A stretch of 64,000 bases of DNA from Halorhabdus tiamatea SARL4B (GTDB taxonomy: Archaea; Halobacteriota; Halobacteria; Halobacteriales; Haloarculaceae), in contig NC_021921.1 of assembly GCF_000470655.1 (NCBI RefSeq), forward strand, positions 868,001 to 932,000, read 5' to 3'. The notes beneath the pieces were generated by a model. The model did not search any database and was not told the origin of the DNA. It saw only the letters and a list, made by a program, of their open reading frames with translations. Position 1 is the stretch's first letter. Every line of letters begins with the position of its first letter. A program made the translations under genes and the position numbers. This document shows, one piece after another, positions 44,703 to 50,747 of this stretch.

Positions 44703-45830
44703 TCACAACCGATCGGTGATCGCTTCGGGATCGTACTCCAGGGAGAGTTGTCGTGAACGACCCCGGCCATCGACGCTGGTGTAGGTCGTCTCGAGCAACC
44801 CGAGTTGCTCGAGTTTGTTGACGATCTCCGAGTAGCGGGTGTACCCGAGGTCGGTTTCGGCCTGGAAGTGCTCGTAGATGTCGCCGGCGAGTTGCCCCTC
44901 GTGGTCGGCGAGGACTTCGAGGAGGGCACGTTCGCTCTCGGAGAGCCCATCGAGGTGTCTCGAGAGGTGGACGTGTTTGGACTTCTCGAAGGCCGCCTCG
45001 ACGTCTTCGGGTTCGACGTGTTTGCTCGCGCGCATCTCGGCGTTGAGGCCGGCCCGGCGCAGCAGGTCGATCCCGACCCGGAGATCGCCGCCCTGGTCTG
45101 CGGTGCGTTCGGCGACACGGTCTAAGATCGGGGCGTCGACGACGCCCTCGTGGAACCCGCGCTCGACGCGCTCTTCGAGGATGTCGACGATCTCGGGTTC
45201 GTCGTACTTCGGGAAGTAGACTTCCTCGGGTCGGAACACACTCTGGACGCGGCCGTCCAGCGATTCGATGACGTCGAGTTCGAGGTCCGAGGAGACCACG
45301 ACCACGCCGATCTTGGCCCCGGAGTGGGCCTCGTGGGCCCTGAGGAGCGAGTAGAGCGTGTCGCTGGCTTCGCCCTCGTAGAAGAGGTAGTTGACGTCGT
45401 CTAAGGCGACCGCGAGCACCTCTTCTTCCTCGACGAGTTTCTCGGTGATCTGGCCGAACAGTTTCTTGAAGGAGATCCCGCTGGCCGGCGGTTCGTACTC
45501 GAAGACTTCCTCGAAGAGCCGCGAGAACACGGCATAGCGCGTCGAGTCGACCTGGCAGTTGACCCGGGCGACTCGGACGTCCGTCTGGGATCCGAGTTCG
45601 CCGTAGAGTTTCTGGATCGCGGTCGTCTTGCCCGTCCCGGGCGGCCCGCGGGCGATGACGTTCAGCGGTCGGGAACCACGCACCGCGGGCCGGAGGGCGT
45701 ACTTCAACGTCTCCATCTGGCTCTCGCGGTGGCGAAACGTCTCGGGGACGTAGTCGATCTCGAAGACGTGCTCGTCCCGGAAGACGGACTCGTCCCAGGA
45801 GAGCATCCCCTCCTCGGGGTCGTCTGTCAT
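44703..45830 (-). CDS. Orc1/Cdc6-family AAA+ replication initiator homologue
   Basis: A 375-residue AAA+ protein. Walker A is GPPGTGKT (62-69) and the Walker B strand is LAVALDDVNYLF, where the usual acidic pair is DD rather than DE. The C-terminal 80 residues form a winged helix (LLEVLADHEGQLAGDIYEHF and YSEIVNKLEQLGLL). ATG 45830 is used; a GTG one codon earlier is possible. Haloarchaea carry many orc/cdc6 copies and only some sit at origins. I see no origin-recognition box (TTTCCA...TGGAAAC type) in the 480-base gap upstream, so this copy may not mark an active origin. Confidence 0.9.
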   Translation of the reverse strand: MTDDPEEGMLSWDESVFRDEHVFEIDYVPETFRHRESQMETLKYALRPAVRGSRPLNVIARGPPGTGKTTAIQKLYGELGSQTDVRVARVNCQVDSTRYAVFSRLFEEVFEYEPPASGISFKKLFGQITEKLVEEEEVLAVALDDVNYLFYEGEASDTLYSLLRAHEAHSGAKIGVVVVSSDLELDVIESLDGRVQSVFRPEEVYFPKYDEPEIVDILEERVERGFHEGVVDAPILDRVAERTADQGGDLRVGIDLLRRAGLNAEMRASKHVEPEDVEAAFEKSKHVHLSRHLDGLSESERALLEVLADHEGQLAGDIYEHFQAETDLGYTRYSEIVNKLEQLGLLETTYTSVDGRGRSRQLSLEYDPEAITDRL

Positions 45831-45833
45831 CAC

Positions 45834-45913
45834 TCTGAGGACGCTCCGGACGCTACTTAACTCTTGGCGGGTGGTTTCCGGGTATGTTTAGTTACGCGAA
45901 TTCGGCTGCGAAT
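45834..45913 (-). promoter_or_regulatory. Upstream region of the Orc1/Cdc6 gene
   Basis: The minus strand has AAGTTAAGTAG (around 45853-45863), about 25-30 bases from the start codon, which fits a promoter for a leaderless transcript. A 7-base TGTTTAG at 45885-45891 has its inverted copy CTAAACA at 46234-46240, outside the cloverleaf element. Confidence 0.4.
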
Positions 45914-46216
45914 AGCCAGAAAGCCCCCGCGTTCTCAGCTCCCGCGACTCTCACGGCTCACTCCGTTCGCCGTTCGAGCGGACCGAGACGCTCACTCTGT
46001 TCGCGTCTCGCGCTCGCTGCGCTCCAGTGGGTGCTTGCGTCGTCGGGATTCGCTGAGAACGCGGCCCCTTTCAGTCCCACCCAGGCCGGCTGGGCAACCG
46101 GCTTCGGGGGGACTGAAAGGGGCGAGTGGCTCCGGGAAGACGGCCGACGCTGGCACCGCAACGCAGTGAGGAGCGCAGCAAGGGCTTCGACCGGAGCCAC
46201 TCGGGGCTTTCTGGCT
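45914..46216. repeat. Cloverleaf-forming palindromic element (four-way junction)
   Basis: A 303-bp intergenic unit whose parts are all paired by perfect inverted repeats that abut each other. The outer stem is AGCCAGAAAGCCCC (45914-45927) with GGGGCTTTCTGGCT (46203-46216). Arm A is closed by CGCGTTCTCAGC (45928-45939) and GCTGAGAACGCG (46052-46063). Arm B is closed by CCCCTTTCAGTCCC (46065-46078) and GGGACTGAAAGGGG (46109-46122). Arm C is closed by CGAGTGGCTCCGG (46123-46135) and CCGGAGCCACTCG (46191-46203). Only one base separates the arms. No ORF on either strand looks real. It could be a non-autonomous mobile element, a structured RNA, or a replication or recombination site. Confidence 0.85.
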
Positions 46217-46315
46217 CTCAGACTCCATTCCTGCTAAACACGACCGGACTTCCGGAAGGGTAGGATTTGTCGACCGAAGAGAAGCAACGACGTCGGTGAA
46301 CGTGGCTGTTCGTCT

Positions 46316-49049: not shown

Positions 49050-49260
49050 ATCCTCCGCGCCGTGAACGGCGCGGCTTCCCTGCATGGGAATACCGGCTAA
49101 CTACCGGCAGAGGGTTCCGACCCGACCTCTCCGAGCGTCATCTGCCGTGGTTGGCTCTGCTCGGTGGGGGTCGGGGCGCTGTCACAGGCACTCCCATCCC
49201 GTGGGATGTCATCGCCCGCCGGTTTCAGCGGCAGGCTCTCACCCCACGGGTCGTGGCGGT
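49050..49260 (-). ncRNA. Candidate TnpB guide RNA (reRNA/omega RNA, sotRNA)
   Basis: In IS605 elements a structured RNA is made from the 3' end of tnpB and the element end next to it. Here that is the minus-strand region from inside the last codons of tnpB to the hairpin at 49055-49074. Sense-overlapping RNAs in tnpB genes have been described in Halobacterium. Boundaries are inferred, not seen. Confidence 0.4.
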
Positions 49261-50353
49261 CAGTGATGTTGACCGCCGCGTTGATGTCCGCGTGGTACTC
49301 TGTCACCCAACACTCGTCGTTCGTACACCGGAACTCGTCGCCGTCCCGATACCCGACGTGGCCGCACTCGTGACACGTCTGCGACGTGTAGGACGGCTCG
49401 ACGTATTCGACCGGGATGCCAGACTCTCGCGCTTTGTCCTCAATGCGCTCCTGCAAGCGAGCGAACGCCCATGCGTGGAGGCGGCGATTCATCCACTCGC
49501 CGTAATCGAGGTCTTCGCGGATGTACGAGAGGTCTTCTAGCACGACGACAGGCTTCTCGAATCGGCAGGCGTACTCGATTGCCTGCCGAGACGCCTTCTC
49601 GATGATGTCTGTGAGTGCGTTCTGGTAGTGGTCGAACCGTTCGTCAATCCGCCACTCGGCGGCCTCGCGCTCTTGGAGTCGCTTGAGCGTCGTGAACATC
49701 TCTTTGCGAAGGTGACGTGCGCGACCACCGTTGATGAGTAGTGGGTCAGTCGGAGTGCCCTGCTCGCAGGCACAGCCCGCGAGCAGGTGTGCTTCGCCAA
49801 TGTCGAAGCCGACTGGTGTTACATGGTTGTCTGTCGGTTCATAGCCCGGTTCTTTAACCGGGAACTCGACGGTGACGTGAAGCGTCCACGACGTGCGGTG
49901 ACGTTGCAGGCGGAGTTGCCCTGCCGACGCTTCACCGTGTACGAGGTCGTGCCACAGTTCTTCTTGAGCGGGGTTGATACGGAGTGGTATCCAGAAGTTG
50001 GTGCCGCGACCGGGCTGTGGTACCCACCACGTAAACTCGTAGTCGCGTTCCGCCGAGTGGTCGAACTCAGCGGCTTGGTTGGTGAGTCGAACCGGGTGGT
50101 CGTCGTCCAACTCCTGTGCATCGTAGGTTCCGTGCAGTTGCGGAACGTAGTTACACAGGGCCGCCTTCGCCTGATACGGCAGGTCGTAGGGCGTCACCAC
50201 GTCACTGGTGGCGGTCATCGTCTCGCACCCGGCCTCGAACGCCTCATGGAGTCCTGCGCGGTAGGTGTCGAGCAGGTCGCACAGTTTGCGCTCTTTGTGG
50301 GCTGTCGGCGGGGCGAGCGTGGCCTCCAGCGTTTTCGTGGTTGTTGCGGTCAT
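49097..50353 (-). CDS. tnpB: TnpB RNA-guided nuclease-like protein of the IS605 element
   Basis: A 418-residue TnpB. The RuvC-type catalytic residues are all present: D184 in VGFDIGEAHLL, E273 in VVLEDLSYI and D356 in YHADINAAVN. The zinc ribbon has CHECGH and CTNDEC. The protein begins one base after the stop of tnpA. TnpB proteins cut DNA next to a short motif with a guide RNA from the element end and help keep the element after excision. With an intact active site it should be active. The C-terminal tail after residue 365 is acidic and disordered. Confidence 0.92.
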   Translation of the reverse strand: MTATTTKTLEATLAPPTAHKERKLCDLLDTYRAGLHEAFEAGCETMTATSDVVTPYDLPYQAKAALCNYVPQLHGTYDAQELDDDHPVRLTNQAAEFDHSAERDYEFTWWVPQPGRGTNFWIPLRINPAQEELWHDLVHGEASAGQLRLQRHRTSWTLHVTVEFPVKEPGYEPTDNHVTPVGFDIGEAHLLAGCACEQGTPTDPLLINGGRARHLRKEMFTTLKRLQEREAAEWRIDERFDHYQNALTDIIEKASRQAIEYACRFEKPVVVLEDLSYIREDLDYGEWMNRRLHAWAFARLQERIEDKARESGIPVEYVEPSYTSQTCHECGHVGYRDGDEFRCTNDECWVTEYHADINAAVNITDRHDPWGESLPLKPAGDDIPRDGSACDSAPTPTEQSQPRQMTLGEVGSEPSAGS

Positions 50354-50354
50354 G

Positions 50355-50747
50355 CTACTGGTTTTCCACGTAGTCCATCAGCACGTCGATGCTCACTTGA
50401 CCGGTCGTGACGAGGAAATATCCCGGTTGCCAGAACGCATCTTCGAGCGTCTGTTTCACCTCAGGGTACTCCTGCCGAATCCGGCGGGATGTGACGCCCT
50501 TGAGCGAGTTGATGAACTTCGTGAGGTCGGTGGTGGGTTTGGTCGTGAACAGGATGTGAACGTGGTCGGTGCCCCCGTCCACGTTCTTGATGTCGGCCTC
50601 GAAGTCCTCTGCAATCTCGTGAGCGACTTCAGCCACGCGCTCCAGCCGCTCATCGGTGAGAATATCGGCACGGTACTTCGTGACAGTCACGAAGTGATAC
50701 TGAAGCGCGTACACTGTGTGCGACCCGGTTTGCAGGTGATACTCCAT
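50355..50747 (-). CDS. tnpA: IS200-type Y1 (HUH) transposase TnpA
   Basis: A 130-residue single-strand transposase. It has the HUH metal motif DHVHILF (H62, H64) and the catalytic tyrosine Y126 in VLMDYVENQ. The length is normal for the family, so the element should be mobile. Directly followed by tnpB. Confidence 0.93.
   Translation of the reverse strand: MEYHLQTGSHTVYALQYHFVTVTKYRADILTDERLERVAEVAHEIAEDFEADIKNVDGGTDHVHILFTTKPTTDLTKFINSLKGVTSRRIRQEYPEVKQTLEDAFWQPGYFLVTTGQVSIDVLMDYVENQ

Follow-up and report, generated by a model that had tools for sequence, protein, structure and literature searches.

A non-autonomous IS6-type element upstream of orc1/cdc6 in Halorhabdus tiamatea and the paired structured unit that forms its body

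The window analysed here, a 64,000-nucleotide stretch of the Halorhabdus tiamatea SARL4B genome, contains an intergenic sequence upstream of an orc1/cdc6 gene whose inverted repeats form one outer stem enclosing three side-by-side arms. An earlier note, made from the letters of the window, had proposed a structured non-coding RNA, a miniature mobile element (MITE-like) moved by a transposase encoded elsewhere, or a cruciform used in recombination or replication next to an orc/cdc6 gene. These proposals are weighed below, and the parts of the element are as follows.

44703-45833, minus strand: orc1/cdc6 (Pfam Cdc6_lid, AAA_16 and AAA_22); the element lies 46 bp upstream of the gene start
45872-45879: left target-site duplication TGGTTTCC, decayed relative to the right copy and to the empty sites
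45880-46245: the whole MITE, 366 bp, non-autonomous, with a body of two tail-to-tail structured units
45880-45898, plus strand: left terminal inverted repeat GGGTATGTTTAGTTACGCG of IS6 type, 14/19 identical to the left end of the IS6-type element L219
45914-45927, plus strand: 5' side of the outer stem, AGCCAGAAAGCCCC, half of a perfect 14-bp inverted repeat
45919-46082, plus strand: structured unit 1, GAAAGCCCC ... CCCCTTTCAGTCCCACCC (covariance model R1, match G000:C2:913919-914082, plus strand, E = 4e-16)
45928-46063, plus strand: arm A, a 12-bp stem (45928-45939/46052-46063) with additional inner hairpins in its loop
46064-46123, plus strand: arm B, in which the 3' ends of the two units pair over 14 bp (46064-46077/46110-46123)
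46105-46211, minus strand: structured unit 2, in opposite orientation (R1, match G000:C2:914105-914211, minus strand, E = 1.9e-22)
46124-46202, plus strand: arm C, a 12-bp stem (46124-46135/46191-46202)
46203-46216, plus strand: 3' side of the outer stem, GGGGCTTTCTGGCT, completing the perfect 14-bp inverted repeat
46227-46245, minus strand: right terminal inverted repeat GGTCGTGTTTAGCAGGAAT, starting GGTCGTGTTTAG like IS6-type ends, 10/19 identical to the right end of L219
46246-46253: right target-site duplication GGACTTCC, decayed

The cloverleaf and the transposon that carries it

The cloverleaf is the minimum RNA fold of positions 45880-46245 (-217.4 kcal/mol, z = -11.3); none of 100 dinucleotide shuffles of this sequence folded as well as RNA, and single-stranded DNA parameters returned the same cloverleaf (z = -11.4). 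The four inverted repeats of the earlier note (14, 12 and 14 bp, and arm C) are present and perfect at their positions, with an overlap in arm C corrected: this arm has 12 pairs of its own, and a 13th pair (46123 with 46203) borrows one base from arm B and one from the outer stem, a shared C and a shared G in all. The single unpaired base placed between the arms is absent, and the junction is fully paired. The cloverleaf arises because the two members of an inverted unit pair can pair head to head and tail to tail. The unit heads (5' ends) form the outer stem and the tails (3' ends) form arm B, while arms A and C are each unit folded on itself. An open reading frame spans the element (45884-46237) and has no Pfam match; together with arms that vary by indels and whole-stem replacement, this supports the earlier view that the element carries no gene. 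Elsewhere in the window, 3 kb from the element, an IS200/IS605-type pair occupies 49097-50747 on the minus strand and consists of a TnpB-like gene (Cas12f1-like TNB domain) and a Y1 transposase gene.

The window's own genome, which comprises two contigs of 2,815,791 and 330,369 bp, contains 23 matches to the element, and the congeners G005 and G006 contain dozens. Aligned copies retain the outer stem and three arms with divergent arm sequences; one copy (L003) has whole stems swapped for other perfect stems, and two (L029 and L032) have additional hairpins inserted into loops. In the copies the cloverleaf is flanked by terminal inverted repeats, GGNNGTGTTTAG...CTAAACNNCC, and seven related copies (L025, L028, L029, L033, L036, L067 and L074) are bounded by perfect 8-bp direct repeats (TCCTCGAT, CACCGGAT, GAAAGAAT, ATCGAGGA, ATATCATC, ACCCGAAC and GCTGATCG). 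The pair TGTTTAG/CTAAACA, which the earlier note took to enclose the cloverleaf, does exist, and it is the inner part of these IS6-type terminal repeats. By pattern search, elements of ~695 bp with the same ends were identified in the congeners G001-G003. The one reading frame tested among them has a match to the IS6/IS240 transposase domain (PF13610), and in some of these elements the frame is broken. Perfect 8-bp duplications surround the IS6-type elements L216 and L219, and autonomous L219 and MITE L036 are identical at 19 of 19 bases at both ends.

The earlier note had suggested comparing occupied with empty loci, and two congeners proved empty at the orthologous orc1/cdc6 locus. There the uninterrupted target reads TGACTTCC-GGAA in G006 and GGGTTCC-GGAA in G005. 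The flanks are conserved, and the stretch between them measures about 86 bp instead of the roughly 480 of the window. The shared ends with autonomous IS6-type elements and the 8-bp duplications establish the element as a MITE mobilisable by an IS6-type transposase, inserted upstream of orc1/cdc6 in a lineage-specific manner. The earlier idea of a MITE-like unit dependent on a transposase from another locus is thereby borne out by terminal repeats, duplications around sister copies, empty sites in congeners and autonomous relatives. We are highly confident of this identification and of the paired-unit composition of the body. The same upstream region holds a single unit in G001 (L258, 2183-2298) and a truncated unit in G002 (L262), both of which seemingly arrived independently of the window element.

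No IS6 transposase above threshold was found in the window's own genome, and given its decayed ends and duplications the window copy is probably a fossil, a dead insertion. At its right end one of two TTTAG repeats has apparently been lost. A truncated remnant of an IS6-type element (L213, G000:C2:2156669) is present in the same genome.

As a MITE, the window element is of an ordinary, known kind. MITEHarch3 (ISfinder) has been named as a haloarchaeal IS6-family MITE (PMC6807381), and PMC7986276 mentions two IS6 MITEs, 227 and 336 bp long. Such IS6-derived haloarchaeal MITEs likewise lack a transposase, have IS6-type terminal repeats starting with GG and 8-bp duplications, and measure a few hundred bp. 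Set against the published descriptions of these MITEs, the distinguishing feature here is a body made of a paired structured unit, one that is widespread without IS6 ends. The window's genus also contains a second IS6-type MITE family (L395, L396, L398, L400 and L409-L412), in which one unit variant, GAAAGCCCT...CGCCCTTTCATTCCACCAGGATT, lies between GTGTTCAGATAAG ends.

The structured unit, its distribution and its compensatory changes

The unit is ~110 nt long and reads GAAAGCCCC, a variable stem usually of 13 bp, a loop, the matching stem and GCCCCTTTCAGTCCC(A/G)CCC, with GAAAG/GGGACTGAAAGGGGC ends. Of 146 genomes of the order, 57 contain the 16-mer of arm B, GTGGGACTGAAAGGGG, in up to 62 copies per genome, against one occurrence of its reversed control; in other genera the 16-mer closes a single unit. 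The earlier note had recommended a covariance-model search of this and other haloarchaeal genomes. A model of the single unit (R1) was built and used for the searches, and it recovered units across the order: in 6 of 7 genomes of the window's genus, and in at least 78 of 117 genomes and at least 34 of 48 genera of the haloarchaeal order. Of 197 genomes sampled across the phylum, 29 had matches, every one of them a member of the order. Plasmids carry units in Natrinema, Natribaculum, Halobaculum, Halobiforma, Haladaptatus, Halorientalis, Haloplanus, Haloarcula, Halorussus and Halopiger, and paired copies in Haloarcula rara came from a contig scan with the outer-stem 14-mer, a query too unspecific by itself. 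Phage records yielded no unit, and two viral contigs with the tail motif gave no R1 match.

Searches of Rfam 15 at a relaxed threshold with the window element and eight other unit loci returned only chance matches, none above the gathering score. The open papers searched contain no description of the unit, and their two literal 13-mer matches are unrelated, neither concerning haloarchaea. The family looks new relative to Rfam and these papers, in agreement with the earlier note, which knew of no named element with this cloverleaf plan. One sequence, GTGGGACTGAAAG, has an apparent resemblance to a CRISPR repeat; its copies are dispersed and form no arrays.

This distribution bears on the idea of a cruciform specific to orc1/cdc6, a Holliday-junction mimic serving recombination or replication. 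A four-way junction that is fully paired, and whose unlike arms prevent branch migration, would suit such a role, and two congeners do have a unit or fragment at the same locus. Against this, the ~20 units of the window's genome are dispersed and usually lie away from orc genes, as do most of the dozens in other genomes, and congeners lack the element at the same origin region. We regard this explanation as extremely improbable.

All 25 adjacent unit pairs found, drawn from at least three families, have the tail-to-tail arrangement, and their commonest spacing is 23 nt. Within a pair the two stems always differ, agreeing at 3-7 of 12 positions, while the loops of the 14 pairs compared share 69-83% identity; no arm can therefore pair with any sequence but its own. 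The stems of random units of the family are likewise unlike, agreeing on average at 5.75 of 12 positions. The sequences just outside the heads are complementary at 5.33 of 8 positions, compared with 3.80 in shuffled pairs (permutation p = 5e-5, a statistic that ignores relatedness), indicating that the outer stem covaries too. In many copies the cloverleaf is maintained as a whole, though in roughly one pair out of two the outer stem is hardly extended or not extended at all.

Compensatory change is pronounced within the single unit. In a 31-unit alignment, RNAalifold predicted 24 pairs, 18 of them with compensatory change. The named structure pairs 94.2% of cells compared with 72.2% when partners are shuffled, and its covariation score is 0.521 against 0.137; neither value was reached in any of 500 shuffles, and structures slid along the alignment pair at most 46% of cells. 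Compensatory changes in both the arm stems and the outer stem keep the fold intact. The earlier note had considered arms varying independently without compensating changes, and the opposite was observed: the arms vary and compensate.

The stems follow a rule, in which length is fixed and sequence is free. Over the first 12 bp, 121 distinct stems (100 distinct 10-mers) are 94.6% Watson-Crick. The commonest length of the perfect run is precisely 13 bp (52/121), with perfect pairing at the arm base and imperfect pairing nearer the tip. Transition mismatches read from GAAAG to CACCC comprise 28 A.C and 6 G.U (p = 2e-4, related stems being partly non-independent). Because these A.C mismatches become G.U or G.T wobbles on the complementary strand, that strand appears to be the relevant one, and selection seems to act on its folded form (GGGTGGGACTGAAAGGGGC-hairpin-GGGGCTTTC), as RNA or single-stranded DNA. 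The A.C bias does not come from the search, since R1 was made from the other strand, on which it would give preference to G.U; a strand-biased mutation process could account for the bias in part. We dropped the idea that the arms are rich in Watson-Crick pairs since they act as DNA: G.U pairs make up ~1.9% of unit stems, and haloarchaeal tRNA acceptor stems are also poor in them (2.9%, 3/105; p = 0.22, on an earlier unit count of 10/730). The low wobble frequency is therefore uninformative.

Long Watson-Crick runs of free sequence could also be produced as a by-product of replication, if template switching or hairpin repair copied one arm side onto the other with no selection for the fold, and the additional perfect triloop hairpins inserted in some arms fit this account. 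It agrees poorly with perfect pairing that sits at the arm base, ends at a sharp 13-bp mode and loosens nearer the tip, with the 28:6 strand bias of the mismatches, and with unit ends, linker length and tail-to-tail order that are the same across families. Such an origin seems rather improbable.

Spread and possible role of the unit

Single units also appear to move. In G080, a Halorussus-like genome, two tested units are missing at the orthologous intergenic loci of congeners, with junctions blurred by divergence, and in many copies of this genome homology stops exactly at CCCACCC. Degenerate ~27-bp tandem repeats (GTGGACTGTGTCACCGGCCGTTTTC) often follow the units there (L265-L284), and ~65-bp repeats with half a unit precede them. 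In the second MITE type of the window's genus one unit lies between GGNNGTGTTCAGATAAG ends, and perfect 8-bp duplications flank L398, L410 and L412. Terminal repeats combined with an 8-bp duplication were found in 6 of 96 elements, all in the window's genus and none in other genera, versus 8 of 951 controls.

Three candidate means of spread were rejected. IS6 as a general mobiliser fails, since unit number does not correlate with the number of IS6 transposase genes (rho 0.17, p = 0.07), and 11 genomes with at least 20 units have no such gene. A RAYT/REP-type system was set aside because Y1 transposases (Y1_Tnp) had no match in 8 of 14 genomes tested, several of them unit-rich, and no unit lay within the flanks of the 11 Y1 genes examined. 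The third, a hairpin inserted in a fixed target GAAAGCCCCTTTCAGTCCC with GCCCC duplication, had no empty target in 1.68 Mb. IS6 and Y1 transposases thus do not explain the spread of the unit outside the window's genus.

Several known systems offer partial parallels. REP/BIME sequences with RAYT (Y1) transposases (PMC2817692) are likewise small palindromic intergenic units, present singly or as inverted pairs in many copies with a conserved foot; several unit-rich genomes here, however, lack Y1, and the stem sequence of the unit is essentially free. Haloquadratum walsbyi has SMR-A and PATE elements (PMC3119063), of which SMR-A resembles the unit in being ~110 nt, transposase-free, dispersed and haloarchaeal, and the mobilisation of SMR elements is enigmatic. 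SMR-A copies are near-identical, with prominent terminal repeats, and lie in near-terminal palindromes of IS605-type elements, whereas the units described here are divergent with conserved structure. Rfam structured RNA families share with it a covariance model with compensatory pairs but, as noted, none matches.

A clue to function comes from Haloarcula megaplasmids (pNG500, pHH126, pHsi139, CBA1115 and that of H. halophila; L413-L417), on which one unit is conserved in place. It lies in a ~1.2-kb conserved structured non-coding region upstream of a gene whose annotation in four of the five is SOSS-B family, an RPA-like single-stranded-DNA-binding protein. When the most distant of the Haloarcula plasmids compared are aligned, few stretches are as well conserved as the unit block. 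This conservation fits function better than a parasite, and the context, a single one, points to a role linked to single-stranded DNA. The plasmids are mostly of type MPF_T.

The main rival explanation holds that the unit is a trans- or cis-acting structured non-coding RNA from the GGGTGGGACTGAAAGGGGC strand, and that the copies are RNA genes or retrocopies, some of them in MITEs. The covariation of the 31-unit alignment is of RNA quality, wobble pairs occur mainly on one strand, the G.U frequency is indistinguishable from that of tRNA acceptor stems, and a copy is syntenic on the Haloarcula plasmids. Conversely, no conserved promoter was found beside the unit: TATA-like motifs seldom occur in the flanks and are nearly absent on the side that would drive the favoured strand. 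Orientation relative to co-directional neighbour genes is even (23 versus 22), unit positions are not conserved between congeners, and loop sequence is only partly conserved. For the earlier non-coding RNA proposal, the compensatory pairs and strand-biased wobbles count in favour and the missing conserved promoter against; we consider this reading unlikely. In another lineage, G115, tandem TATA-like boxes (CTTATAAATGG) lie about 40 nt upstream of two units (L360 and L361) and could drive unit transcripts there; a few other copies also have TATA-like boxes.

The same context data bear on a regulatory insertion, in which the element would be a promoter, a terminator or an insulator serving orc1/cdc6 and other genes nearby. 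Its position close to the gene start, the units in the same upstream region of G001 and G002, and the rarity of units between convergent genes (4/65, from crude gene calls) agree with such a role. The absence of both an orientation preference and a conserved promoter motif does not, nor do G005 and G006, which retain orc1/cdc6 despite the empty site, and we judge it very improbable.

The explanation we favour, which taken whole has somewhat better than an even chance, is that the repeat unit is mobile and is recognised in folded, single-stranded form. An IS6-type MITE inserted upstream of orc1/cdc6 in the window's lineage, its body being an inverted tail-to-tail pair of a ~110-nt unit that occurs order-wide singly or paired. 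The folded single strand of this unit, as single-stranded DNA or RNA, would be recognised by a putative partner protein that spreads or protects it, and the IS6-type terminal repeats in the window's genus would represent a second, captured way of moving. Our searches found no partner protein for the unit.

More tentatively, and with a little less than an even chance, the unit may represent a new order-wide folded nucleic acid with constant ends, a fixed 13-bp stem of free sequence and one active strand (RNA or single-stranded DNA), residing in transposons, plasmids and chromosomes and recurrently forming a tail-to-tail immobile four-way junction with unlike arms. If so, most haloarchaeal genomes would hold an overlooked family of structured repeats, often in dozens of copies, and the rule of fixed length, free sequence and strand-biased wobble would have to reflect recognition of the folded strand by some protein. 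A covariance model would be ready for use, old RNA-seq data could be re-read, and natural immobile four-way junctions would be at hand for asking how archaea handle cruciforms; the window element itself would be explained without a special role at a replication origin.

A further type of insert was observed at several positions in unit loops (L029, L032, L033, L036, L040, L010, L084 and L254). Each consists of two perfect 8-12-bp hairpins with 3-nt loops separated by a 5-8-nt spacer, and these twin-hairpin inserts look like a second mobile layer.
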